From NCBI GenBank assembly GCA_026419785.1, contig JAODTK010002109.1, positions 114,312 through 178,311 on the forward strand: 64,000 bases of DNA, in the 5' to 3' direction. The position numbers and the translations under genes are program-made. Below the pieces are notes generated by a model. The model saw only the letters and a program-made list of their open reading frames with translations, was not told the origin of the DNA and searched no databases. Numbering within the stretch: position 1 is the first letter of the stretch; every line of letters starts with the position of its first letter. Below, in pieces: positions 1 to 57,380 of this stretch. Origin of the DNA: Sclerodactyla briareus (lineage: Eukaryota; Echinodermata; Holothuroidea; Dendrochirotida; Sclerodactylidae).

Positions 1-889
1 CATCATAATCAGACCCGGATCAGACAGACTATCGAGGATTTAACTAGGGCAGAAGGATGAATGCAGAAAAGCTCATGAATAACATGATAGAACCCTTAAC
101 ATTGCTTGACCTCAATAACAGATTGCCTGACTAATAATCTGGCAGCCATTCTCTCAACTTCAATAATCACCATGTTGTTAATGAAGTATAAAGTCAGTTG
201 ATATATAAAATCAACTTGATCTTGCATCAGTTCATAATTAGGTCACGGATACAGTATGTAAATGTTTAGGGAATAGTTTGGTATACCGATCAGTTAACTT
301 TACACTCTGCAACTTGCAATAACAAATTCATCATCTCAAATCAGGACAAGCGGTTATTACGGTTAATGTATTTGACCTGATTCCATGACAGGAATAAAAT
401 AGAAACCTCAACAGCAAAATATATAAAATAAATGTCTCAACCCTGGATGTGAAGCAGACACAAAATGATGCTTACAACTTGTACAGAGAGCTACTATTTT
501 TGGAAATAGAATTTCCTCTTTGCAAAATGAGGAGAAACGAGAAAGAAGACTTGAAACATCTGGAGTAAGTTCAATCAACCACTAAAAATGTTGCCATGTA
601 ACAATCAATATCATCTAAATCTAAGTCGGAACAGTTGTCCACCACCACAACTTGAAAAGACATAATGTTCAGTGACCCAATGAACCCAATTCCCTTGTGT
701 TTGTTCTCACAATGTGGGGCAACTGTGGTTGCCTATAAATCTCCGATAACTTATCGGCAACATTAAAACATTTTAATGTTCTGTGCCTATATGTTATGCC
801 AGTGTATTCCAGAGATTAGTGCTATATTATGGCCGATTAAGGTAGACCGCCATTGTTAGGCGTGATAAAAGCATTTACCTATACATTTG
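1..889. other. No gene recognised
   Basis: AT-rich, no open frame of interest, no repeat partner found elsewhere in the window. Confidence 0.55.
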
Positions 890-1115
890 AAGTTCCACTC
901 AGCCCTTATTTCATGTCCTCCTTTCCAACCACGGAGCTACCCGTACTGTTGTAATCTATTGTACTGACTGATACGAAAAACAGAAATTGAACAAATCTGT
1001 TGGAACGATAGTATTGGGACTGATCACCATTTTTCTAGAAGAATAGAAATGATTTGAAGCTGCCTGCCCCATCATTGACTGAAGTTCTTCTTGTAGATGA
1101 AGTATCGAACGAAAT
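890..1115 (-). mobile_element. MITE-like repeat, copy A (partial)
   Basis: This is the reverse complement of part of the elements at 47,022-47,388 and 54,596-54,982. It begins with the shared terminus AAGTTCCACTCAGC, followed by TTATTTCATGTCCTCCTTTC, and further in shares the reverse complement of CGTTCGATACTTCATC and GAACTTCAGTCAA. Similarity fades near 1,115 before the other terminus, so the copy is truncated. There is no coding capacity. Confidence 0.6.
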
Positions 1116-2540
1116 CAGATCAAAGACAAAGAAGTACAAAAGAGAAGCACTCGGGATTGGTGGAAAGAGACATCCAGGAAATTCAGTGAGAATCAATTAA
1201 TGTTCAATATACTGTAAGTGACTCTGGGAAAGGTGGCTCGCTAAGGGGCTTGCCACAGTGGGAAGGGGGTAATGTAGCAGAGCTGTACACAAAAAAGTGG
1301 GCTATATACACTGTAGGTCGCAGCTATGACCAGACAGATTGGAAGTGAAGGAGACTACTAGGGAACAGGGATGTCTAGTAATAAACAGTGAGTAGTAACC
1401 CTGGCAGTGGATTGATGGGTCTCACTGAGCATGAATATAGTCATATTGTACAAGGGTCCATACATGTAACTTCAAGTTAAATTCTACATTGGCAAATGTT
1501 GCCAAATAATTACTAGCAAATCTGGGGGATTATCAGACAACTGCATGCTTGGATGTGTAAGAGGTATGTATTGAGGAAAAAACTGTATCTATAGCTTCAA
1601 ACTTCATTTCAATGTGGAGTTACTGGCCTTTGGAGTTGGGTCCATTTGCAGAGAAATTAGGCTACTGTATATGACCAGGCCTTTTGAAAAAAAAAAAAAA
1701 TCAGAGGGGGTAGGAGACGGTAGGAGACATGTTGACTAGGGAAAAGCTGTGAAACTTTGATGAAACCCTGGTTGCCCAAGATGTTTGTCCTATCATAGGC
1801 AAAAGTACAGTCAGACATAGGAGTTGAGTGTGTCCAGTTGCAAGGGATGTTACTCTGAGTATGAACCTTTAGCCTAGATTCCTCAGCCTATCAGTGAAAC
1901 AGCCTCCATGTCAGAGGTAATGATGATTGTTACTGACAGTATTATGGAGATTAGGAAGATCAGCCATCAGGACCTGACATGAACTGTCAGCTGGGGAATA
2001 CATTCAGTTACCACTGAATGATACATGACAAATTATTTACTCTTGGAGAGTTTAGGGAACATTGCTTTTCAATTTGAGTCGGGTACGGCGTATAAATCCC
2101 ATCCATACAAAACAAGAAATAATTCTGGGTTTCACTGAAGCCAATCACCATGATGAAGCGAATAAGGGCCATGCCAGTGTGATTCTAATGAAATGGAAAT
2201 TCAATACCACCAAACAATTTTTCCTCTGGTATTCTTTCTGAGCAGAGCTTAGGATCAAACTTTTCCTTACAAGGCAGGGAAGCAGGGTGCAGTCCTTGGT
2301 ATGTCTGCACTGTTTGTCAACTGTGAATCGAGGTACAGGGAATGAGGTGATGAGTCTGATGAATCATGTGTGTTGTGGCTGGTGGCCTAATGTAGAGGTG
2401 GAGGCAAATCAAAAGCAGATAACTACTGCTTCATGTATATGCAAATTGCCTATTCCTTGTTACTCCATGCCCCACTTCTCTAATGCTGAGCACTAAGCAA
2501 GAAAAGAATAGAAAACCGGAACTATTTTTGAAAAATCCTT
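1116..2540. other. No gene recognised
   Basis: AT-rich with an A run (1,687-1,699). The short plus frame at 2,287-2,496 shows no domain. If the Ig exon belongs to ROR, CRD, kringle and kinase exons would lie in this direction, but none is visible. Confidence 0.55.
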
Positions 2541-2621
2541 GGTATCACCTGAGGTGGGTTTGAACCCTGATCTCCTCGTCATTAGGATGACACTCTACCA
2601 ACTGTGCTAATCACTTGGTCG
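2541..2621 (-). repeat. tRNA-derived SINE head or tRNA pseudogene
   Basis: On the minus strand there is a good RNA polymerase III A box (TAGCACAGTTGG, followed by TAGAG) and, at normal tRNA spacing, a perfect-consensus B box (GGTTCAAACCC). The anticodon stem positions pair poorly and the acceptor stem does not close, so a functional tRNA is unlikely. Loss of structure with both promoter boxes kept is typical of tRNA-derived SINEs. I see no clear tail or target-site duplication. Confidence 0.5.
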
Positions 2622-3250
2622 AACCTAAGTGCAAAATAGCAGAACGTCAGTCAATTTCTCAAAAATTTGAAGGGATAAGTGAATTGGAAAAGAAATGGTT
2701 CAGGGTCTGCTCTATATAACACTTCCTAAAACTACATGGCAATTGAAAATTCACTTATATTCCTGACATACCAGACACGATAAGCTATATTCCCCAATTC
2801 TGATGGGTACCCCAGCCTATACAAACTATGACTTGCTAGGTATTTTTCATCGTAAAGCTGAAATCATTCTTTTGCTGTAATCTTCCACCAATTTCACCTT
2901 TCTTCCCAAATCTTCAACTCATAGAATGGACCTATTGAGAACATTTGCATAAGGAGTGGGAACCATCTGAAATGAAAGTAGCAAATATATCAAAGCATGC
3001 GATTAATCCCCAGATTCTTATCTAACCTCTTACAATGGAATTGCTGCAGATTACAACCATCGTTTTCTGAGCCTATTTTTTATTCTAGGGACCAGGCCTG
3101 CCTGACATTTCTTTGCTTCCTCTTGTTTTAATAGGATCAAGTAATGATATTCTGTCCCTTGTGTGAAACTATAGCCTAGACAATCCAACGATACCGCCCC
3201 TACCATATACTGGATAGATGCTTGTAGGAGCAGTATGGCAACAAAACCAA

Positions 3251-3540
3251 TAACAGTGCAACACGTTATGGTTTGTAACTTCGCTATGTCTACGTGCGAG
3301 GCATGTGAAACCAGCTTCTGGCATCAGTATTGCCCACCTATAGCATAGAGCACGAAGAAAGTCCCCTACCCATGCTGTAAGGCGTTACACACATATATAC
3401 TTGCACTTTTCACATCCAGGTTGCTCTACTAGAAATTGTTCTCCACAGCTTTTCTCAATCTAAAGAGTTAACAACATACTGTATTTAGCTGATACAATGT
3501 TACACATACACCTTCCAGTTAATATGATAGCTCCTTGGTG
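3251..3540 (+). repeat. Dispersed repeat, copy 1 (pair with 55.45-55.86 kb)
   Basis: Collinear similarity with 55,451-55,860: TTTGTAACTTCGCTATGTCT here against TTTGTAACTTTGCTGTGTCT there; GCACTTTTCACATCCAGGTT against GCACTTTCCACATACAGGTT; GTATTTAGCTGATACAATGT against GTATTTTGCTGACACGATGT; and CCAGTTAATATGATAGC against CCAGTTAACATAACAGC. No frame is conserved between the two copies. Family unknown. Confidence 0.55.
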
Positions 3541-5480: not shown

Positions 5481-6177
5481 AGTCTGAAGAGTTTCGCACA
5501 ATCGCCAAATTTAATCACTCAGGGAGCATCGGTTGTGGTTCTCATTCTATAAATGTATAGCTATGCCTATTCAGCGACTCGCCTATTATGGTGATTGGAA
5601 GGTGTAACCAGTGGCAGGCAGCACCTGGTTTCTATACTTAAGCTACAGATGGCAAATGATGACAACAGCTGAAAAACAGATTTTTTCCCCTTTTTTTTGG
5701 CTGCTTATCTGGGCAATAGTATCCCATTCACTGTGCGTTGATACATGATGAAAGGTTACTCCAAGTTGAGATGGAATGGAATTCAGCCCCTCTCCATCTG
5801 AAATCCTGTGCACATTACTGATACTCATAGTCCGAAGAGTTTCGCACAATCGCCCAATTTAATCACTCAGGGAGCTAGCATCTGTTGTGGTTCTAATTAT
5901 GAATGTACAGCTATGCCTATTCAGCGACTCGCCTATTATGGTGATTGGAAGGTGTAACCAGTGGCAGGCGGCAAGGGGGGCAAAGGTTTTGTACTGGAGC
6001 TACAGATTGGCAAACTGATGACAACAGCCAAAAAGCAGATTTTTCTCCTTTTTTTTGCTGCTTATTCGGGCAATAGTATCCCATTCACTGTGCGTTGGTA
6101 CACGATATGAGGTTACTTTATATTCAGACAGAATGGAATTTGGCCCATACACATCTGAAATCATGTGCACATTACTG
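5481..6177. repeat. Tandem duplication, two units of about 345 bp, beside the Ig exon
   Basis: Unit 1 is 5,481-5,820 and unit 2 is 5,829-6,177. Both contain GAAGAGTTTCGCACAATCGC, a long identical stretch around TATTCAGCGACTCGCCTATT, then TCCCATTCACTGTGCGTTG, and both end TGTGCACATTACTG. The right end of unit 2 lies 29 bp from the last base of the Ig exon, so the duplication sits in the intron just past the splice donor. Similarity is high but with many small differences, so it is not very recent. Confidence 0.85.
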
Positions 6178-6206
6178 TACAGAGCAGAACAGAGTTACAA
6201 ACTGAC

Positions 6207-6513
6207 CTGGATTTAGAGAGATTTTTCCGACAACAGCCCTCTGTCCCGCCTCATTTTGGGACATGCACTTGAACTCCCCGATGTCGAGAGTATCAACGTT
6301 ACGTATCCGTAGTCGGGACCCCCAGGAGTGGTTCGAGACCGACATGCGTCCTATGTCGGTCTGGAAGTATGCCCCGTTGCGGTACCACCAGTAGTGTGGG
6401 GTGGGGTATCCTCGTATCCTGCACCGTAGGATCACTGTTTCACCAATGTTTGCTGTAACATTGTTCATGGGCCGTCTACATGGATGTACTTTGTCCCGGG
6501 TGGTGGGGTGGTC
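6207..6513 (-). CDS. ROR: Internal exon encoding an Ig (I-set) domain of a ROR-like receptor tyrosine kinase
   Basis: Seen: on the minus strand a frame of 102 codons runs from an acceptor (CCTACAG|GAC, first base 6,513) to a donor (AATCCAG|GTCAGT, last base 6,207). The exon is 307 nt, phase 0 in and phase 1 out. It has the Ig hallmarks: Cys at residue 31 (LRC), a Trp pair at 42-43, and the DIGEFKC motif at 77-83 supplying the second Cys. There are N-glycosylation sequons at residues 18-20 (NVT) and 61-63 (NHS). Family knowledge: the run GSRLRIRNVDTLDIGEF (65-81) closely resembles the Ig domain of animal ROR1/ROR2, where GSRLRI followed by a DT-D-G-Y/F-C motif is characteristic. In that family the Ig domain is extracellular and precedes a Frizzled-like CRD, a kringle, a membrane segment and a kinase that responds to Wnt5-type ligands. 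None of those other domains is visible in the window. Other Ig receptors remain possible; the Ig call is firm and the ROR call is probable. The upstream in-frame Met belongs to intron sequence and is not the start. Confidence 0.7.
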
Positions 6514-7941
6514 CTGTAGGTTATGAATAGATTCAAATGGTTTATGATATATACCGAGATGCAAGTGAAATGTTAATTTACAATATCCAGTTCTGGATAT
6601 GATATAACAATTTTAGATAGGTAGATAGATAATTTATTCAGCCATACACGTATGAAAATACAATGGAAATTGTATTTATAACTTTACATTGTTCATCAAA
6701 ACTAGGAACACAAGTCTTTCAAGGTCAGTGGGTGGGAGCCTAGGACATGACTTCAATTATGATTCCTTATATAATCCAACCTGCAATAAATGTTCAGTCA
6801 ATGAGATAGTGAAAATGCATAAGGCAGACTTATATATTCAATGTCTTTATGACACGACAGAGGGAAGTAAAAAACCTGCCCTATGCGAAGCTGATGCACT
6901 ATGGGAACCCCCTGACAAACATCTGTCACACGAGAATGGTGACCCTGATCTAATAAAAATCACAGAATTCTTAAGACTAAATGAATGCATGCATTTATTG
7001 ACTTTGAAGAAAATAATTCCTTGAACTCTCCACGTAATAAAAAATGATGGAAATCAGCAATTACTGCATAACTCAATAACAGAATTCCTTTGGTTCCCCT
7101 TGTGACTCCATTGGACTTGACACAAAAACAAAATGAGTTTGAACTTCAAAATTCAAGATTTTAGGAAGTAGAGTAGAAATATGCTCTTTCCATCTATGTT
7201 AAGCCTCAAATTGATCACTGCACTGAAAAAAAATGTTAGTTTACATTTCCACTGACCTTCAAATAGTTGGAAGTTCAAACTAGAAGCTCTGTCGTTGGTC
7301 CCAACATGCAAAGGAGGGCCAGCGGTTCATTTCAGTCATCAGACCATCACTCTGTAAAGCCCATATGAACAAGTGGAATAATGTCAGAATGACATAAGGA
7401 TGGGCATCAAAGGTTCCTGGCTATAAATAATAGGGTTTGTCCAGGTTTGTCTGAAGTTTGGTGTTTCTTACTGTTTCAAATGATTGTTAAATACTCTATC
7501 TTGTGGCAAATATAAAGTAATTGGAGATTAAGTATGAACATGTATGAGGCTTGGGAAAACCTGAATGACTTTCCAAGACCCAAGTTAGAAAGGGAAAGAT
7601 ACATTTTTTTGGGATGATTTGATTTTTTTCCTGCTTGAGAATATTATTACTTGAAATATTAATTACCTCAGACAAAGAATACATAACCCAAAAACTGGCT
7701 ACAAAATAATTCGTGAACTAGCTAACCAAACATCAGAAGGAGCAATTAAATCTCTGCATCTCAGAAGAAAACAGATTATATCCATTCAATATATTATTAT
7801 AGGTAATTACGTATGAACATGAAAAAAATTATATAGATAAATTCAGTAATAGTAGGGATTATTGATTTTTACATTAGTAAAAACATTATCAATCAAATTT
7901 TTTTTGAGGTTATTGGAGAAAACCACAAAAAAGGGGGATAT

Positions 7942-32865: not shown

Positions 32866-35241
32866 CCCATTTCATACAAAGGTTCCATTTTTTTTTTCAA
32901 ACCATTTTTTCATAACTGATGGACCTGCGGCAGTGTTGTGATGACAGGTGGGATTGGTGCTGTGGTTGCTTCATTCATTGATATGGTTGGTATACAAGCA
33001 AATCACTCTCAAGCTTATCATTGCTGTTATCCCTAATATTCTCATAATACTCGTTGACTCTAGGATGTTTAACATTTTTTTTACGGGCTGGAATACGCTA
33101 CCGTAAAACAGCGATTATCAAGAATGCAGTTAGTACACCACGGGAGGCCACTTCAGACGGTCTAACAGTGTTAATGTGGCTGCCAACCATATTTCTGGTT
33201 GTTCGCCTCCTGACAGGAGCGTTGACTGGTATCAGGTTCAAGGTTTACTTCTAACCTGACGTTTCAATTTTTCGATTCATTTCTCCAGCATTTTTTCTGG
33301 CTTCGTGACATTCATAGTTATTTGCCATCCCAGCAAAGTAGGGGGAGTGGGTTCATATGCTGATCCCCGACAGATGGATTAGGCATATCAGATGCCTACC
33401 TAATGTACGGATTCAATGCGGATAGTTATATCATAGATATCATATAATGCACTGTCATCAAATTAGTTGATGTCAGCTTCTCCAAATTCTAATGAGAGGT
33501 ATATCAACCTTCTTATGTGTGCAAGTCATGACCAGATGCTAAACCCTAAATTCTGGATGATCAACCTATGAAATCAAGTTGACAAGAGTCAAGCTAAATC
33601 ATCTACAACAAGACTGGAGCTTCTGCTAGCAAATTACGCCTGGGACGACAAAGAAAGAGGGTCAAGCTTTAGATGATGGGGAGGGGGCTGCTGTTAACAC
33701 TGACGCCACTTGACACGGCATTATTCTTTAAACCACACCCGCCCTACACAGTACCATCATACTTTGTGGGTGCCGTTAGCAGCGACCCATTTTAAACGTG
33801 TCTCTAAAAATAATTTACTCTCAGTTGGCAGCTGAAGCTGAAATGTTCATATCGGGAATCATTTGATGAAATAGTTGTTATTCAGTGACATAACCATGAT
33901 GGAGCCTTTCCCCCCCCCTTGTAGATTGCCTTGTAAGGGTGTTGTATTTAACCATCACATCTCTGACAGCCGAGGTTATATGGTGGCCCCGAGTATCAGC
34001 CACTATTGCTATTTGTACAAAGACAGCCAACCCCTATAACACCAGAGGGTGTTAATATAGAGAGAATAAAGCTAAACATCAGACCAATCACCAAAGGACT
34101 TATCACCGAGTTTGAATAGATTACACTCCCCATCCTCCCCTATGACCAAGTGGCAAACAAAAAATATGAACACACATGGGTCCTGAGTTCCCCCATCCCA
34201 CCCCTCGGCTCCTTCATCTACTGATCACACACATCGGTCTACTCAGTCACACCATTCCAGTATTGCTTTTGTTGCATTGGATGGGACTATCCATATTACA
34301 CTCAGTGCTGTCATATACCGACAATGTGTATTACTGGGTATGTTCTGAATGTCAGAAACCTGGGCTTGTTTGAGGCCAAACGATTGCACTTCATCAGGAT
34401 TTGTTTCCAATTTTCATGTAGTAATTTGTCGAGGAACAAAATATTGAGTTTTGTGATAACATTACTTCCAACATGAATACAATTGTGGAATTTACTTCTC
34501 TCGACTCGCGAAACGTAACTTGTGTGCATTTGAGCAACTAATGCCCATGACTAATGTGCGGTAATTTTTTTTCCTTTTTTATTCCTTTTTTTTTTTCTTT
34601 TCTTCTTCTGGGTTAAGGTGCCGTACTCCGGAAGATTACACTCATAACACATTCCATTTCACTAGTGCATTGAAAAATTCCTGCCAAAGAGCACTCGGAT
34701 TCATATTGTATGAACACTTAACGATCTATTTTTAGTTTTCGAAACCTCCTCGTGAAATGAGTGTTTTGAACCGCAATAGTCGGGTATTCTGGAGCTCATA
34801 CAAGAATGATTCACTTACTATTTGTGTTTAACTTGACCCTTATAGTGTTACGGGTTTGAGCTTTCAAGGCTCTTAAGTTGTGATCCGTATCCTTGTCATG
34901 CGAATTTGGTCATGATGGGGAAATATTTCGTGAACTTATAGACGAGAAAGAATTGTCATAATCTTTGGCTTCTAAAAATTAAAATACCTGCCGAAATGAT
35001 CATTTTAAACAATGGTTGTTGATTATTCCGGCCTAAGCTAGTTTGCGTGATTCTCACCACCTAATTAAAGACGTAGTCTGCGCGTGGTATAATACTATGC
35101 AGATTCAACAATATGGGCGTGTGCTAGTCTGGTTAACTAAAAGTGTACAGCGCGTATGTTGTACGAACATACGTGAGCCGCGCCGTCCAGGCTCCGCTAA
35201 ACATGTCTGGTTCTACAAAAACAGTACGGGTTTTGGAATCT
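32866..35241. other. No gene recognised
   Basis: AT-rich. It contains T-rich and TTC-rich tracts at 32,888-32,898 and 34,564-34,608 and a C run at 33,910-33,918. No frame resembles a known exon. Confidence 0.6.
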
Positions 35242-35471
35242 TGAGCCTATGAATACTTACCCTTATAGACCATGCCACCCCTCAATTATGTACCGAGTGT
35301 AGGCATTTAAACATAGTACCGGGTTGCCACCCCATCGCCCTTCTCTTTTTTCCAGGCTAGGCGTCCTGCATCTCGAGGGTTACCCGGAAGCGAATGTGTG
35401 GACGCTTGCGACGGCCCGGGGGGGGATGGATGGGAGGGACTGTCGTATAAGGGTAAGTAATCATAGGCTCA
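35242..35471. repeat. 230-bp segment with its own 29-30 bp inverted termini
   Basis: TGAGCCTATGAATACTTACC (35,242 onward) is mirrored by the reverse complement of 35,441-35,471, which reads TGAGCCTATGATTACTTACC. Both then continue CTTATA and end GAC. The left terminus overlaps the left inverted repeat of the larger block, so an insertion, duplication or inversion has occurred at this edge. Confidence 0.75.
35251..35358 (+). repeat. Left inverted repeat of the GC-rich element
   Basis: Reads CTTACCCTTATAGACCATGC, then a less conserved stretch, then TTTAAACATAGTACCGGGTT and GCCACCCCATCGCCCTTCTC. The reverse complement of 41,229-41,345 reads CTACCCTTATCGACCATGCA, TTTTAACATAGTACCCCC and GCCACCCCATCGCCCTTCTC in the same order. 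A stretch of 20 bases (GCCACCCCATCGCCCTTCTC) is identical. Confidence 0.8.
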
Positions 35472-35504
35472 CAGATTCACAGAACCCCGGGACTGTGTTG
35501 TAGA

Positions 35505-35545
35505 ATCTATTCACCTACTCTACTTACCCCTTATCGAACCAGCAC
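35505..35545 (+). repeat. Extra copy of the element terminus at the left edge
   Basis: ATCTATTCACCTACTCTACT followed by TACCCCTTATCGAACCAGCA matches the reverse complement of the right edge, ATCTATTTCACCTACTCTAA followed by CTACCCTTATCGACCATGCA. It is in the same orientation as the left inverted repeat but about 250 bp further in. Confidence 0.7.
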
Positions 35546-38500
35546 CAGTCTAGCACAGGGCGCTGGTGGTGGGACCGTGCCGTCGCGCCGTGCAGGCGGA
35601 CGCTGAGTAGTCGGCGGTTGCAGAGCCGCTATGGCAACTGCCCTTCCTTGGACACCGCGTCCGTCCCATAAGTACGCGACAAAGGTGTTCGGAGTTTCCA
35701 CGCCACCGCTTTCCTCACGACTTCTTTCTAGCCGGGCGCTCGAGACCATGCTGCCGGCGGATGCGGAAGCCAAACATTGATCGCTGGGAACGGATCAAAC
35801 GAGTCCCTCGATAACCAAGCCCATGGCCCGGACGGGCACCAGTGCTTGCGACCCGATCGCGGGGAGTTCAATCTCGCGCGAAAACGGCACCGAATGACTG
35901 ACTCTGTGACAAGAAAGCCGGATCCGACAGGAAACGGATCCCGTCTAGACCGTGCCAGGGAAGGAAGGCTTAGTAGGAAGCGGCCTCAAGACAGCTCATG
36001 CGGCTCGCGGAGGCCACTGCCGCCCCCAACAAACGGCGTTTGAGGTTGAGGAGCTCCAGCGTTTTCGAAAGCGTTTCGCGGGAGATTTGTGGCGAGGAAA
36101 CCTGCCGGGCCAAAAAGAGCTGAGGAGACGACTCGCAACGTCCGGAATCGTCGAGCCCTGCTTCACATGTAGAAGAGGCCAAGACGAAGACATCGCAAGG
36201 GCGTAACGATGGCAACCAAGGGCGTTACAACCGAGGCTGTTGCGACGTCCGCAAAACCGGTCCCGAATGGCCGCTTGTTCGGAAGCATTGTTCGGCTCGT
36301 CACCCCGCAGAAGAGACACAAGGGAGCAAGGGCCGTGGTACCACAGATAACCCATCTGCCCGAGCCGGAAGGGTCGGAAGCAGAGGTCTGAAGTCGCGCA
36401 TTGTTAGCCGTCCCGAAGAGACGACGAAAGGTCGGGGGTCGATCGGGACCGTCACGGCGTGCCTTGCCGTGATCGCCAAAAAGGGGCCGTCGTCCTAAAG
36501 CATGGCACCCTCACCCCGAGAAGCGCCGCGTCTGTGGTCACGTCGCCGGGGATAGGGGAAGGGAAGTCGCAAAAAGCGACTATACCGCGCCACCCATGTG
36601 CTCGGCCACGATGCCCCTATGTGGCTCCGTCCATGAGGACAGGAAGAGCCCGAGATCCACACGAAGAGGGATCGGTTGGCGGATCGACAACAGACTGCGC
36701 CGAGCGGCCGGCGCGGCGCGCGACGGCACAGAGGAGATCGAGATATCGATCATAGGGGCCGCCGGAACCCAGGGGCCGAGTCACTGCCCCGGGCGGGAAT
36801 ACTCAGGATGACCGCTGCAGCCGCGGCAACTTCCGAGACGCGCTGAGATCCGCGCTGGTAGAGAAATGGACCCGCTTTCGACGGGGCCACCCGGGGCCAA
36901 TCGTCGTTGTGAGCGACGACCGTACTGCCATCCTGCCGCAAGAAGCGAAGATGGGGGGCCGACCCAGGTGAAAGAGCCGGGGCCAGCGGGAGGCCGAAAG
37001 GAGAGGCGACCACCCAAGCGGTTTAGTATGCCCCGAGCGAACGCTAGGAAGCGGCCGTTGATGAGAGGGTGCCTGGGCAGATGAGGGTCCCGTAGGCTCT
37101 CGACGTAGCCCGCCCCCTCTTGAGGAAGGATCGGGATGGCGGGTAGCAAGGGACCCCAACCGAATTTCCTTGGCGGACGGGGCGATACCCTCCACTGGTG
37201 GTGCTTCCGACGAGAAACGATGAATGCGTAAACGAACTCGTTCGCCTATGTCTTCGGCATCCCCTTCAGCTTTAGAGGTAGAGGTCGGCGGCGCTGGAGG
37301 AGGCCGGCCTCTGCCGTTCTCGACCGCGGGCGGCACTGAAGCCCACAAAAAGGGGTCTACGCCCAGGAGGGCAAGTCCGCACGAAGCAGCTTTCATGGCC
37401 TCTGTAGGTTGTGACACCGCCTCGAGGACGGTGTCCCGACACATGCCCGTGGCCCATCCGGATCACGTTTCCGGTGTCCCGCCGAGAGCTGCGGGGTCCC
37501 TCCTACGCCGCCCACGGAAAACGCCGTCGTCGCGTCGTAACCACGATTTCCACGGACGAGCCGGTAAGCGCATGCGTAAAAAACAATGCGACGACGGAGA
37601 GTCGAGGTCCCAGAGTTCATTAGCCGCCTAAGAGTTCGAGAATCCTCTTTGTGTGGAAGGTCCCCCGGTAGTGGACTGAAGTGGGTGGAACCTCACCATC
37701 GATCGGCCCACCGGGTGGTGGTCTACGGCCCGGCAATGAGGGATAGGCGGGACGGCGGCGCGGTGGCTGTTCCGATCGGAAGGCTCTTCGGAGCCCAGTC
37801 ACCGTTGGATAAGTGGCGACCGCTCATTCCGGAGCGGTCACGGGAAATGTCCGTGCCAAGGAACAACGCCCGCTCGGAGCCCGAGAAGAAAGAAACCTTG
37901 GGTATCAGAGGCGCGTGAACGAAACGAACAAAGGCGGCCTCTACCGAGAACGGTTGACGCGGGGGCGAGGCCTGCTCCAACGGGACCCGAGACTGCCGAA
38001 AACGTGGTTTTCAGGGGGGCACTCAAGACTGGGTCCCTGAGGGAGGGGGAGGTGTGGTCGAAGAGACCCAAACAAAAAATCTCGCCGGTCGCCAACCTCT
38101 CGCGCACGTGATGCACGAGAAAGACAGAGAATGGGCCTTGCCGCCCCTCCACCTCCTGAGGCTAGTGCGTAAGAAGTCCCACAGGGGCTCCTACCGAGCT
38201 GCGGCAGGGGCATGCCTCGGCGGAACCCCCCGCACCGGTGAGGACGGGCCAACGCGGGCACACTCTGCTGGGATGACTCAGACTGGCGTCTGCGCCGAAA
38301 CCCCCCAACCCAAACGAAGCACGTGGTCCACTCCTCCAGGGGTCCTGACTGGTGTTCGAAAACCAAAATCGGAAACCCTGGAATCCGAGTGGTTGATTCG
38401 GCCAGCCGAGCCAAACCGAGCGCCGGTGGGGCCTCGAAATCTGACCTTCAAAGCCCTCGAGAGGCCGGTCGGCCCTGCGCTTCGATGCGCCCAGCCCCGA

Positions 38501-38949
38501 CCGAAGCCGTGGTCTCCGCGGAGCCTTGGGATTGGTTCTGTCGTGCCCCAGGATCGTAACCGATCTGGTCGCTGAAAAAACGTATGGTGCTCCTCATGCG
38601 GACGGGGCCCCCAGCCGAGCCATGGGCGCCTCGCGACCCCCGCGAAGCAGACCAAGCGCCCCAGGATCCGAACCGAGAGCGACTGTCGGTTCGGCAGGCG
38701 GAAAAAAAGCCTGGCGCTTCTCATTCGCCGGGGACTCCAACCTCAGGCGTAGGCCCCCCCGTTCATTGAGGTCCGTACCCGGTGACCGACCTACCGGGGC
38801 CAACGGAGTCCTGGGCCTCGGTGGTTGCCCAGTCTACCGAGTCCACAGTGATCCGTGTGCCTGCATGACGCCCTCGGATCCGACGTCCGTTTGAAGACGG
38901 CCGGCGCTCTCGACGCCCCAACCAGGCTAGAAACAGCGCCCGGGCACAA
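35546..38949. other. GC-rich interior of the element, no gene recognised
   Basis: Very high CpG density and no dominant reading frame. The longest frame is 213 codons (36,803-37,444, minus), overlapped by comparable frames on both strands. None has a recognisable domain or a codon pattern that sets it apart. From about 38,280 onward, weak echoes of the tandem unit appear (GGTTGATTCGGCCAGCCGAG at 38,391; TCGGTTCGGCAGGCGG at 38,686). I see no match to 18S, 5.8S, 28S or 5S rRNA. Confidence 0.5.
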
Positions 38950-40060
38950 CTTCTCTGGGATGCTGGTCTTTCCACCGGCCCGGCTCTCCTGCCACCGGCC
39001 ACAACCGAGCGTTGACCCCCCTCGGAGACCGGACTCGGTTGTTTTGTCAGACCGCCGGCGTCGACGGTGGTCGGTTCGGCCGGCCGAGACGAATATAGTT
39101 CCGCCGGCGCCCTCTCTCAGGTACGGATATCGGTGTTATGGTCCACCGGAGCCACCTGCTTTCCCGGCGGTTGGTCGGCTTAGCGACCGGGGCGCTCCGC
39201 AGGCGCCCTAACCGAGCCGTCGCCACCCTCGGGTACGGGACCTCGGTGTCGACCCACGGGAGCCCGTGCCAAGGGTATGTTCGGCCGGGCGGAAGCCGAC
39301 CCGGGCACTCCGCCGGCCCCTTTAAACCGAGCCGTCGACCCTCGCTCGGAAGTCCCGATCTCGGTGTCTAACCCACCAGAGGACCTCCTGCATCCCAGTG
39401 GTCGGTTCGGCTGGGGCAAAGCCGACCGGGCGCCCTGCCGGCGCCCCCTAACCGAGCCGGTCGACCCCTCAGGAGTCCGGATCTCGGTGTCTAACCCCCC
39501 GGGCCTCAGATCACAAGTGGTCGGTCGGCCGGCCGAAGCCGACTGGGCGCTTGCCGGCGACTAAAACCGAGACGTCGATCCCCCCTCGGAGTCCGACTCG
39601 GAGTCCAACCCACGGAGACCCGGATCCCTGTGGTCTGTTCGGCACCCGGCGCCCCGCGGCGGCCCTGGACCGAGCCCTCGACCCCTCGGGGTCCGGACCT
39701 CGGTGTCCGACCACAGAGACCCCAGCTCCCGGTGGTCGGTTCGGCACGGCAAAGCCCGGCCGGTGCTCCGCGGCCGCCCGCCAAGCCGTAGGGGACTCTC
39801 CCTCGGAAGGTCCGGACCTCGGTATACGACCCACCAGAGCCCCCGGATACTGCGTGGTCGGTTCGTCGGCCGAAGCCGGCCGGGGCGCTCCGCCGGGGCC
39901 CCTCCGAGCCGTAGACCCTCCTCAGAGCCCGGACCTCGGTATCCGACCCACCGGTTGCCCCCGGCACCCGGTAATCGATTCGGCCGGCCGGAGCCGATGG
40001 GACGCACTACATGACGCCCCTTGATCCGACACTCAGGAAGCCACCCGATAGTGACGGTCG
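38950..40060 (+). repeat. Degenerate tandem array, period about 113 bp
   Basis: A GGTCGGTTCGG block recurs near 39,069, 39,173, 39,278, 39,400, 39,519, 39,632, 39,734, 39,856 and 39,972, so the spacing is 102-122 bp. Typical units run GGTCGGTTCGGCCGGCCGAA, then GCCGACCGGGCGCTCCGCC, GGCGCCCCTAACCGAGCCGT, CGACCCCTC, and GGACCTCGGTGTCCGACCCA. The period is not a multiple of three and unit lengths vary, so the 267-codon minus frame across it (39,561-40,364) is most likely a by-product of high GC. Confidence 0.8.
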
Positions 40061-41228
40061 GGTTCGGCGGCTTTCGCCGGACTGGTGTCCAATGCGCCTG
40101 GGGTTTCGGGACCGCCGCCAGCCGGAGCCGGTTGTGACGATACCAGGTTCCTTTCCCTGCGGAGGTGAACTCGGACACTGCATGGTCGATCCGACCTAGT
40201 TCACTCCCGAGACCAGCCCGGAGGGAGCAGTCCCCCCCGGTCTTAAACCTGCTTACCCTTGGCCCCTTGGTTTCTTCGGCTGTCTCCCCGTTGAACTGCA
40301 GGGTTCGGCTCTGTCTTCTCCCGTAGATACTGCAGCGGGTTAGACCAGTGAAAAACAACAGCACCTACTGGATACTCTGTGGCACGCGTCCGACAATGGG
40401 GAAAGAGGTCCCATACGGTTCACACAGTCAGGGCATCTTACCACGGTGGTCGTACTGCTGCGTGGAACCACCTGCCGGGCGACGTCGTTCATGGCACGGC
40501 GCTCCACGCTTGATGAGCCAGCGGTTGTCTGCCGCATACGATGGGCTCCTTTGGCGCTGATGCTCCTCAGGATGTGAACAGCCGAAACTTCCTATAGAAA
40601 ACATCAACTACCTATCTATGCCGTCTACTCTCTCTCTCTCTCTCCCTTACACACAGCAAGTGTCGCACGCGAAAACTTCCCAAGCGCACACGCGACAGCA
40701 ACCAAACCACCACCCCCGGGCACGGGAGGGACGGGAGGGGACAGGGACCCCCCCAGGATGGGACGGGAGTAGGGACCCGAGGGAGGGGTGAAGGAGGGGG
40801 AAGTGAGGGGAGGGGAATCCGGTAATGACCAAACTTATGAACCCAAAGCACCCCCAAAACACAACGGCCAACGACCAAACAAGCGAACCTCCGCAGAGGT
40901 GAGATCGGTGAGAGAACGCCAAATGGTTAACCACACAAGTGACTGTTAGGCACGGGAGGTACACACACCACCTCCTACGTTAGGCGCCAGCTAGGCTGGT
41001 AGGAACGTACTTACGCGCGATGGCGACAAAGAGAGAAAAACAAAAGCGACCAAAACATCGCGAAAACGAACACAACTCTTGCCAAAATGCTTCTCCACGA
41101 AGCTGGAGAGTAGTTCGGTCTCCCCAAACGGCAGATTTTTTCACCAAGCAGGAACACCAACTTCCATTTGGTCGAAAAATTTTTGGAAAAAAAAACAAAA
41201 AAAAACTTTTCGTTTTTGGCAGACGAAT
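40061..41228. other. Right interior of the element, no gene recognised
   Basis: GC content declines towards the right edge. It holds a CT microsatellite (40,628-40,646), a strand-asymmetric purine stretch (GGGACGGGAGGGGACAGGGA and similar, 40,718-40,820), and an A-rich stretch (41,177-41,210). Short frames only. Confidence 0.5.
40628..40646. repeat. (CT)n microsatellite
   Basis: About nine CT units. Confidence 0.9.
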
Positions 41229-41363
41229 AGTCTGGCAAAAGAGAAGGGCGATGGGGTGGCAACCCCGGGGGGGGGTACTATGTTAAAATGCCAGACACCG
41301 GGTAGAATATTATTGAGGGGGTTGCATGGTCGATAAGGGTAGTTAGAGTAGGTGAAATAGATG
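41229..41363 (-). repeat. Right inverted repeat of the GC-rich element
   Basis: Inverted partner of 35,251-35,358. The inner part is AGTCTGGCAAAAGAGAAGGG followed by CGATGGGGTGGC; the outer part is GCATGGTCGATAAGGGTAGT followed by TAGAGTAGGTGAAATAGATG. The outermost 18 bases match a separate fragment at 35,505-35,545 rather than the sequence directly outside the left repeat. Confidence 0.75.
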
Positions 41364-47021: not shown

Positions 47022-47388
47022 AAGTTCCATTCAGCCTTTGGAATATTCAAGAAAATAAGCATCACTGAAATTGAAATGAATGCCGCACCCGTCAATACCA
47101 TGTACAGGAAGAACTTCAGTCAAAAATACAGCACTGAAAATCATTTCAATACTTGAAGGAAATAGTGATCAGTCCACCAATTTCCAACAAGAGCTGGTTG
47201 ACTGCCAACAAATGTATATGTTTTGCCACCGGGACCTATTCCACAAAATAACTAATTTGACCTAATAACTATCGTTGTTTCAACATTTTTTCCAATTGTA
47301 ATAGTATTTTAATATAAATACACTAGATACTACAGTATGAATGTTCGTGGCTGGAAAGGAGGACATGAAATAAAGCTGAATGGAACTT
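47022..47388 (+). mobile_element. MITE-like repeat, copy B (both ends present)
   Basis: The left end is AAGTTCCATTCAGCCTTTGG and the right end is AAAGCTGAATGGAACTT, so the element closes with inverted termini of about 15-17 bp. Its 367 bp hold no meaningful frame. The interior shares GGAATATTCAAGAAAATAAG, GAACTTCAGTCAAAAATACA and GACATGAAATAAAGCTGAAT with copy C. This architecture suits a non-autonomous DNA transposon. I could not define a target-site duplication with certainty. Confidence 0.65.
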
Positions 47389-47518
47389 GAATGAAAGGCC
47401 AATGGTCATGTTAATGACAAACATTGGTACCAGTACGTTCACTATTAACTTTATGACAGCCAAAAATTCAGACAATTTCAGCCGAATTGAGGCACAATCA
47501 GCTACGCATTTTTTGGTT

Positions 47519-54595: not shown

Positions 54596-54982
54596 AGTTC
54601 CATTCAGCCTTTGAAATATTCGAGGAAATAAGTATCAAGCTTTGAAATTGAAGGCCATCGTTCGATACCTCATCCACAAAGGGAACTTCAGTCAAAATTA
54701 CAGCACTCAAATTGTCTCTATTCGTGGAGAAAATGGTGATAATTCTCAAATTTTCAAAAAGCCGCTGCAAGTTCATGGCCGTAACAAATTACACATAATG
54801 TTTTTGCCACATAACCTATCACACGTAATTTTACAATTTTTTATTCCCCAATACTATCGTTTCAATCAACAGTCTACAATATTTTCAATTGTAGTTTTTG
54901 CACGCATCAAAACAATAGATTACACAGTATGCGTAGCTTGCGGCTGGAAAAAAAGACATGAAATAAAGGCTGAATGAGCTTT
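54596..54982 (+). mobile_element. MITE-like repeat, copy C (both ends present)
   Basis: This second near-complete copy of the family is 387 bp, starting AGTTCCATTCAGCCTTTG and ending AAAGGCTGAATGAGCTT. It carries the same internal landmarks as copy B (GGAACTTCAGTCAAAATTAC, TTTTCAATTGTAGTTTTTG, GACATGAAATAAAGGCTGAA). A 111-codon open frame crosses it, but that frame is not preserved in copy B and I do not regard it as a gene. Divergence between copies suggests old insertions. Confidence 0.65.
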
Positions 54983-55450
54983 AATTTGAAAACAAACGAA
55001 TCGCACCCCTGATGCTCATTTGCTATGGCATGTTAATTAATGGGTGTGGGTACATTACAGTACTGAAAGTTGGAAACCCAGTCGATATTTTCCCATGGTT
55101 TGGACGCTTTGCATTTGTATGCAGTGCAAATGTTGATTAGGCTTTGGTTTATAAAATTAAATAAGAATAACAGTGAGCTAGTTTTCAAACATGAAGTAAA
55201 AATAAAACCATGATATGAGTGGATAACTTTGTTAGAGATTGTACAGTAGGGATATGAGGTCCGGTAGTATAGTACACTGAGCCTAGTCGCAACATCATAA
55301 AAGAATATCCTGCTACAGGTTTGATGGGTATAAATTTTGTTTAGAGAATTTAGACCGGTTGGGCGATACTGAAGATAAATTCATGACATCTCCAGCCACA
55401 ACACCTCCCTCCAGTGACATCAGTGTAGTACATGGTACAGTAGAATATGG

Positions 55451-55860: not shown

Positions 55861-56825
55861 AGAACTCACATGGAACATGGGTTAATACCTACCCACTAGT
55901 CATGAACAAAACAAAAATTGTGATGTTCATTTGGGAAGTGCACTGATAATGATTAACTATCTGTACATACAGGGTCCACACTGTAATAACAGAATAAACA
56001 TGATTCATGGCTGGCCCTGCTTACAACACCTCCCCTCCCACATGGTCCATCTCCCTGCTCTTGACTCTACCCTTAATTGCAGTTTACAGTCATATTTCAT
56101 TTTATGTGCAATTAACTACACCAATAAAATAACTTTCCACAGCCATAAAATCACCTTCCCCCCATATAGGTTGACACCCATAGCCTCCTGAGTCCTGACA
56201 CAGCAGTCATCTTATCTGCCTGGTATTGGTATCATACTATAATGGTCCGCTGCCTTCCTTTCTTACTCAGTATACAGTACATGTCTCCTTCCACAAAGGC
56301 AGTTTCGCCTCAGGATTAATATCTGGCAGCATTTGTCTGCGGTCAAGCAGATGAGCTGCTGAGATATAAACATAGGACTGTCTTCTGGTTAGACCAAAAA
56401 CCCATAAACAGAGAGAACCTCTATCTGTCTTTTCTCTCACGCTAGGCATCCCTCCACACCAGTGTGTGCCAGTCATCAACTGTGAAATGGATTAGTAACT
56501 GACTTTGTAATGAACAGGATGCATATAGTTGGAAGGCCATGGTCACACAACAGATAGGCTTCAAAATTAGCACTGGTGATAAGAGGAAATATCAAACCAC
56601 ACCCAATGTTTTCATTTATTATGATACGAAAACTTATTAGGCGCCCTATCCAAAATGAATGCCCTAAGGAATGTACAATGTGAAAAAAAATTCAATAAGA
56701 GAACAAAATACAATACAAATGCTTAGGGCGGACCGGAAAAAATATAGCTTTTAACATTTCTTCAAAAATTAGGACACCTTTGGCACACTTAGCATCAAGG
56801 ACAGTTTGATCCAAGGTTTTTGGAG
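55861..56825. other. No gene recognised
   Basis: Ordinary AT-rich sequence with short frames on both strands and no domain. Confidence 0.55.
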
Positions 56826-57380
56826 GTTCTGGCATTTTGCCTTGTTGAGATATTTCAAATTCACTTTCGAGAAACTCTATAGGAATCCATGCCATCATTG
56901 GGGGAACAATGCATAGGCTGCCCATATACCCAACACAGTAAATGCTGCATTTTGGCATACACAGGAGGACAAAAACGATTATTCAATTAGAAATTAATGA
57001 GATGATTCGTTATCCATTTTGTGAACGATTTTGAAGGTTTTTCATTAAGATCCCATCCATCGTTTGTTTGGTACAAGATTTTACAAAAGGTTGGTTTTTT
57101 TTTTTTACATGTTCTGGCATGTTGCCTTGTTGAGATATTTCAAATTTACTTTCGAGAAATTCTATAGGAATCCATGCCATCATTGGGGGAACAATGCAAG
57201 GGCTCCTCATAGACCCTACACAGTAAATGCTGCATTTTGGCATACACAGGAGGACAAAAACGATTATTCAATTAGAAATTAATGAGATGATTCTTTATTA
57301 TTTTGTGAATGATTTTGAAGGTTTTTCATTAAGATCCCATCCATCGTTTGTTTGGTACAGGATTTTACAAAGTCTGACAT
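56826..57380. repeat. Tandem duplication, two units of about 285 bp, nearly identical
   Basis: Unit 1 starts at 56,826 (GTTCTGGCATTTTGCCTTGT) and unit 2 at 57,111 (GTTCTGGCATGTTGCCTTGT). Long shared runs include GGAATCCATGCCATCATTGG, GTAAATGCTGCATTTTGGCA and AAGATCCCATCCATCGTTTG. Identity is visibly higher than in the other tandem repeats here, so this duplication is relatively young. Short minus frames start MPKCSIYCVG in both units; they diverge by frameshift after MPE. Confidence 0.85.

Follow-up and report, generated by a model that had tools for sequence, protein, structure and literature searches.

DIRS1-like elements are defined by inverted terminal repeats (ITRs) together with two internal complementary regions (ICRs) whose 3-bp overlap, close to the 3' end, forms the circular junction. 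They integrate without target-site duplication and carry one terminal extension (PMC3266345). The text of that paper gives lengths of 3,974–6,283 bp, ATT is the commonest end, and SkoDIRS1 is described at 6,052 bp with ATT/ATT/AAT. PAT, Ngaro and Viper appear there as further tyrosine-recombinase retrotransposons. Split direct repeats bound some of these, whereas the repeats of the block described below are inverted.

The stretch of DNA analysed here, referred to as the window, comprises 64,000 nucleotides of the Sclerodactyla briareus assembly. It holds a block of unusual composition, with a GC content per kilobase of 0.54–0.70 as compared to 0.35–0.50 outside, and a CpG observed/expected ratio of 1.04 (35501–40600) as compared to 0.43–0.50 outside. 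These figures confirm the sharp compositional difference and high CpG density pointed out in the initial annotation, which had read the block as a mobile element with no recognisable gene. We consider it very likely that the block is a minus-strand DIRS1-like retrotransposon that has been made to look gene-less by uncorrected long-read errors in the assembly. The features on which this reading is built are as follows.

35211..41362, minus strand: DIRS1-like retrotransposon copy of 6,152 bp, from the common ends of fetched copies and the error spectrum
41222..41362, minus strand: left (5') terminus with inverted terminal repeat, pairing with 35258–35365 and beating shuffles in 14 of 14 copies
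40600..41221, minus strand: less GC-rich 5' leader adjoining the left terminus, by eye
39168..40005, minus strand: GC-rich tandem repeat inside the element, its roughly 7 units each about 115 bp long, from copy alignments
36400..37330, minus strand: reverse transcriptase/RNase H (RT/RH) region, limits approximate and frames broken, from tblastn, frameshift-tolerant alignment and majority sequence
35560..36150, minus strand: tyrosine recombinase (YR) region, limits approximate and frames broken, from piece-majority alignment, raw copies being weak
35505..35546, minus strand: left internal complementary region, the reverse complement of the left terminus, by shuffle test
35429..35505, minus strand: right internal complementary region, the reverse complement of the right terminus, by shuffle test
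35211..35365, minus strand: right (3') terminus consisting of ITR and outer extension, from copy comparison and repeat scores

The element is oriented with its 5' end at 41362 and its 3' end at 35211, and its GC content is 0.62–0.64 against approximately 0.42 in neighbouring host DNA. Imperfect inverted repeats of about 110 bp had been noted at its borders and were recovered at 35258–35365 and 41222–41341 (78.5% match over 121 columns, E 1.3e-19); by eye, the identical run within them is about 29 bases long (20 in the annotation). Comparison of copies left the previously proposed right edge in place (41363 by the annotation, 41362 here) and moved the left one from 35251 to about 35211, 40 bases further out. 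Near this end lie two features that had been overlooked, a second inverted repeat (35429–35505) and, at 35505–35546, a short stretch copied from the opposite end. An outer extension of about 24 bp, its length judged by eye, is found only at the right (3') end (35211 to about 35235). At 36141–36150 the window copy is without some 70–120 bases that most fetched copies have there, which is either an error or a real deletion. The number of units in the approximately 115-bp tandem repeat at 39168–40005 varies between copies, the stretch being absent from the copy at locus L015, and it is possible that the repeat codes for a repetitive part of a gag-like protein. Two features elsewhere in the window were also recorded. 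An exon on the minus strand at 6172–6612 encodes an immunoglobulin I-set domain (Pfam, E 9.6e-15) and by eye is reminiscent of what we take to be a ROR-type receptor, and at 56817–57371 a unit of about 285 bp is directly duplicated in tandem, its two copies being 93.7% identical.

Searches of the source genome (319 Mb in 3,171 contigs) with the left and right kilobases of the element gave matches at 40 of 40 scored places in both cases, these being the best 40 of 448 and of 339 candidates, respectively, with the window copy counted. The GC-rich family thus has at least 40 places per end, and these copy numbers are lower bounds. Twenty loci picked by their match to the left kilobase were fetched; 20 of the 40 scored places lie in them, in some cases more than one to a locus. 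They contain 24 left ends that start at positions equivalent to 35205–35219, and the complete copies among them have both ends in common and stop near 41362. The terminal letters read TCTACAAAACAG... at one end and ...GGTGAAATAGAT at the other, with scatter. That the block is a mobile element with defined ends and has other copies in its genome was therefore borne out. As far as we have seen, the family is new as a family.

Structural tests were performed on 14 copies, namely 13 full copies from 13 loci and the window copy. The copies in L009, L010, L014, L016, L017, L019 and L027, the second of those in L018 and the first of those in L023 are truncated, broken or at contig ends; they were kept outside these tests and remained eligible for the piecewise majority sequences used below. 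The ITR scored at least 82 in all 14 copies, at a shuffle maximum of 27. The right ICR scored 67–97 in 14 of 14 (shuffle maximum 30), and the left ICR scored 28–70, again in every copy (shuffle maximum 23), L021 being marginal at 28. The two ICRs meet at the trinucleotide AAT, as GTAG-AAT-CTA, which is the circle junction, the sequence formed where the element's two ends join, as it reads on the opposite strand. By eye this junction is present letter for letter in 7 of the 14 copies and only partly visible in an eighth, and in the remaining copies it is one or more letters off. No target-site duplication was seen in the 14 copies, the longest word shared by a copy's own flanks being 4.57 as compared to 4.34 between copies, and the exact letters of the target trinucleotide are obscured by errors in these copies. 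Two early ideas, a MITE lying beside a TIR element and a Helentron, were dropped once the inner repeat turned out to match the joined ends in reverse complement.

The block is assigned to the DIRS1-like elements on the account of its length, ITR, ICRs, junction, lack of a target-site duplication and ATT-like ends, each of which fits the description in PMC3266345. What it has in common with these elements is a size of 6.15 kb, the ITR, one terminal extension, ATT-like termini, the lack of target-site duplication, a pair of ICRs (about 42 and 77 bp long) that meet at AAT, and RT/RH and YR sequence. It differs from them in that its frames are broken in the assembly. A GC content far above that of the host and the GC-rich tandem repeat of about 115 bp are the block's own, possibly without being unusual for DIRS1-like elements.

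Conventional domain searches returned little from the block. Out of 10 raw open reading frames searched against Pfam, none of the 8 that came from the block rose above the curated cut-off, nor did any of 9 piece-majority block fragments, the best sub-threshold matches of block fragments being Nha1_C (E 0.023) and Phage_P2_GpU (E 0.13). Nothing in the window matched Rfam at gathering scores, and a protein-database search with a 238-residue RT piece gave 1,271 candidates, none of them at E 0.1. As each copy has a gap event roughly every 20 bases (529 events in 5,725 aligned bases for one pair), the Pfam result is not taken as absence of domains. In a search of the genome with RVT_1, the block was not among the best 150 scored of 1,330 candidates, as expected from its broken frames. 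Minus-strand fragments of the piece majorities contain stretches that we take to be RT, RNase H and YR motifs, and by eye one further motif-like stretch might belong to a methyltransferase domain. Three of the piece majorities (36400–37250, 38000–38850 and 39600–40450) have a minus-strand frame that stays open over their full length. Open-frame length nevertheless proves little here since the DNA is GC-rich, 3 of 7 majority pieces (one more is tied) and 4 of 8 of a second set have their longest frame on the plus strand, and the piece majorities still switch frame under other settings. Mutual information at lag 3 was dropped as a coding test because on/off values over six regions were mixed (0.51–1.50) and a true retroelement coding region reached only 1.04.

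A related locus was more informative. Beyond the family's own copies, a genome search with the RT piece matched contig C1979 at E 3.5e-6, in a frame that was also among the matches of the RVT_1 genome search. This locus, L031 (C1979:196600–201600), contains an RT frame that is open and matches Pfam RVT_1 at E 1.7e-12, and over 360 aligned columns its DNA is 68.6% identical to the 3' terminus and ICRs of the block. Its RT frame overlaps a frame of 605 residues that by eye ends in YR-like sequence. In a second locus, L032 (C1986:396300–399300), RVT_1 is matched only below threshold (E 0.024). Both loci are DIRS-like elements related to the block and equally GC- and CpG-rich but more diverged, and L031 has longer open frames. 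Two other RT loci, L029 and L030, were considered as DIRS references and discarded, as by eye they read as Gypsy-like rather than DIRS; L029 (C2301:173700–178900) has protease/RT and integrase frames of Gypsy-like appearance.

By tblastn the L031 RT matched 36876–37001 of the window on the minus strand (E 1.7e-4 for the 64-kb window), and the sole other match at E 0.01 was between the middle part of L031 and 38448–38807 on the plus, that is the wrong, strand (E 0.007). Parts of L031 were then aligned to the 14 raw copies with tolerance of frameshifts, 100 Markov-simulated sequences serving as the null. On the minus strand, RT/RH outscored every one of the 100 null sequences in 13 of the 14 raw copies, the window copy having a z of 6.3; on the plus strand it did so in none. 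For the two YR parts, 3 and 0 of the 14 raw copies exceeded the null maximum on the minus strand and 1 and 0 on the plus strand. The putative gag of L031 exceeded it in 3 copies on the minus and 4 on the plus strand, and the middle part in none and 1, respectively, so that neither stands out on the expected strand and homology to gag was not detected. Piece-majority alignments were scored against 200 null sequences per strand. The RT/RH majority reached a z of 15.8 and lay above all 200 on the minus strand, not on the plus strand, and the YR majority was above the null on the minus strand only (z 7.6 for the N-part and 6.0 for the C-part). These alignments argue strongly for the presence of RT/RH in the element and with moderate strength for YR sequence, in which no intact frame was seen. 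The order of the coding sequence is as expected for DIRS, with RT/RH followed by YR adjoining the ICRs. The absence of a recognisable gene thus holds for the assembled letters, as the Pfam searches show, and fails for the element, which carries RT/RH and YR sequence on its minus strand; the same split applies to the suggested domain search of the interior, where Pfam found nothing and frameshift-tolerant alignment to L031 matched both regions.

The nature of the differences between copies was evaluated from their substitution and gap spectra. The 14 copies form a star at 0.75–0.82 identity with GC and CpG intact (CpG observed/expected about 1.0). In the parts examined, each copy has 3.5–6.3% private substitutions, 1.7–5.1% deletions and 1.4–5.6% insertions, and 1-base gaps between copies are many. 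Transitions over transversions (ts/tv) among the private substitutions are 0.54–0.55, near the random value of 0.5, and the ratio of CpG to non-CpG transitions is 1.04, meaning that there is no CpG excess. In a first control, consisting of repeats in the flanks (3 of 10 rows from one repeat in L022), ts/tv was 0.88 as compared to 0.49 for the block, and gap events per substitution were 0.30 as compared to 0.52. As this contrast was only moderate, a cleaner control was fetched. A short AT-rich repeat occurs in the window at 54596–54985 and 47023–47392 and has 1,573 candidates genome-wide. From the best 40 of these candidates that were scored, 45 matches were listed, and the 17 longer ones were fetched and combined with the window copy at 54596–54985. 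At 11.2% substitution this dispersed repeat has a ts/tv of 1.35, 0.17 gap events per substitution and transition frequencies of 0.183 at CpG and 0.064 elsewhere, a 2.9-fold difference. At 9.9% substitution the block has a ts/tv of 0.69, 0.36 gap events per substitution and transition frequencies of 0.038 at CpG and 0.039 elsewhere. With private substitutions only, the contrast in ts/tv is modest (0.74 in the control, 0.55 in the block). Two further repeats in the window look natural, with ts/tv of 1.0 and 1.9 and 0.06 and 0.24 gaps per substitution.

The same spectrum extends beyond the element. Positions 1–3473 and 4520–7956 of L014 are head-to-tail copies of a stretch that includes a portion of the element together with its AT-rich flank, at 79.8% BLAST identity. 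The duplicated 2.4-kb AT-rich flank, which is non-element DNA, has 1.3 gap events per substitution at a ts/tv of 0.20. Probably the assembly contains a single locus here two times over, built from reads that were not corrected. Non-element flanks in L010 gave ts/tv of 0.43 and 0.38. Since element and flank share a spectrum that is not biological, uncorrected long reads are favoured over decay, and most of the differences between copies look like errors of this kind. At approximately 7–17% substitutions and small indels per copy, such errors would destroy reading frames and mimic an old, gene-less repeat. The suspicion of an assembly problem was close to the mark for the letters inside the block, which look error-rich, and not for the element itself, which is real. 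The GC-rich repeats would have been left as, or filled with, uncorrected long-read sequence. The use of such reads to fill gaps is established: in the PBJelly paper, gap filling starts from reads of about 15% raw error, skewed to insertions, and simulated fills reach 97% identity (PMC3504050). The DENTIST abstract cautions that the sequence given for a closed gap is often not the true one. The error level in the copies is above that of PBJelly's simulated fills, and the error mix, unlike that of raw PacBio reads, is not insertion-dominated. A minority base was shared by at least 4 copies at 101 of 2,650 columns (51 transitions and 50 transversions), where about 7 would be expected under independent errors; a portion of these columns probably reflects genuine differences between subfamilies, and another portion misalignment. 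In the parts examined, the copies therefore probably differ in truth by a few per cent, and the family is probably young.

An old and truly degenerate DIRS family, amplified once and then decaying independently so that no protein is encoded today, would share the DIRS architecture and account for the star-like divergence at 0.75–0.82 identity and the broken frames of the raw copies, and the ts/tv of 0.74 for control singletons is close to the 0.55 of the block. We nevertheless hold this to be very improbable, as the control repeat, taken from the same genome and diverged to an equal degree, differs in ts/tv (1.35 against 0.69) and in its 2.9-fold CpG excess, of which the block, at a CpG observed/expected ratio of about 1.0, has none, and as the non-element flanks of L014 and L010 carry the same error spectrum.

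The initial annotation had suggested a large non-autonomous transposon, taken here as a TIR DNA transposon free of coding content, or else a carrier of a GC-rich satellite. The former would explain inverted repeats at both ends, the many copies and assembled frames that contain no Pfam domain, but the circle-junction ICRs in 14 of 14 copies, the one-strand RT/RH match in 13 of 14 raw copies and the lack of any target-site duplication seen among the 14 copies make it barely credible. Both proposals fail on the DIRS-type termini and the RT/RH and YR coding sequence, and the supposed satellite, the repeat at 39168–40005, is an internal part of the element. A rolling-circle element of Helitron or Helentron type is just as implausible. 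It would fit the lack of target-site duplication, the asymmetric (subterminal) inverted repeats and the internal tandem repeat, and does not fit the RT/RH and YR sequence or the circle-junction ICRs, which are not known as a feature of Helitrons.

If the block is a DIRS1-like retrotransposon, the DIRS model predicts that it would be transcribed from the end at 41362 and that the RNA would then be reverse transcribed. The ends would be brought together with the ICRs as template to form a circle, which the YR would recombine into an ATT-like target trinucleotide without duplicating the target.

An apparently gene-less, satellite-like element is in this way returned to a retrotransposon family of ordinary kind, and the case illustrates that an assembly containing uncorrected long-read sequence can imitate an ancient, non-coding repeat. 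Repeat dating from such assemblies would be badly wrong. A ts/tv of about 0.5, one-base indels and the lack of a CpG excess relative to a control from the same genome are diagnostics that could be used on other orphan GC-rich blocks. Somewhat speculatively, and with the odds against it, the family may represent a recently active DIRS lineage that is GC-rich, has its CpG intact and bears, in its coding portion, a GC-rich tandem repeat able to expand. If this were true, its copies would escape the CpG decay of neighbouring DNA and repeats, being either young or unmethylated.
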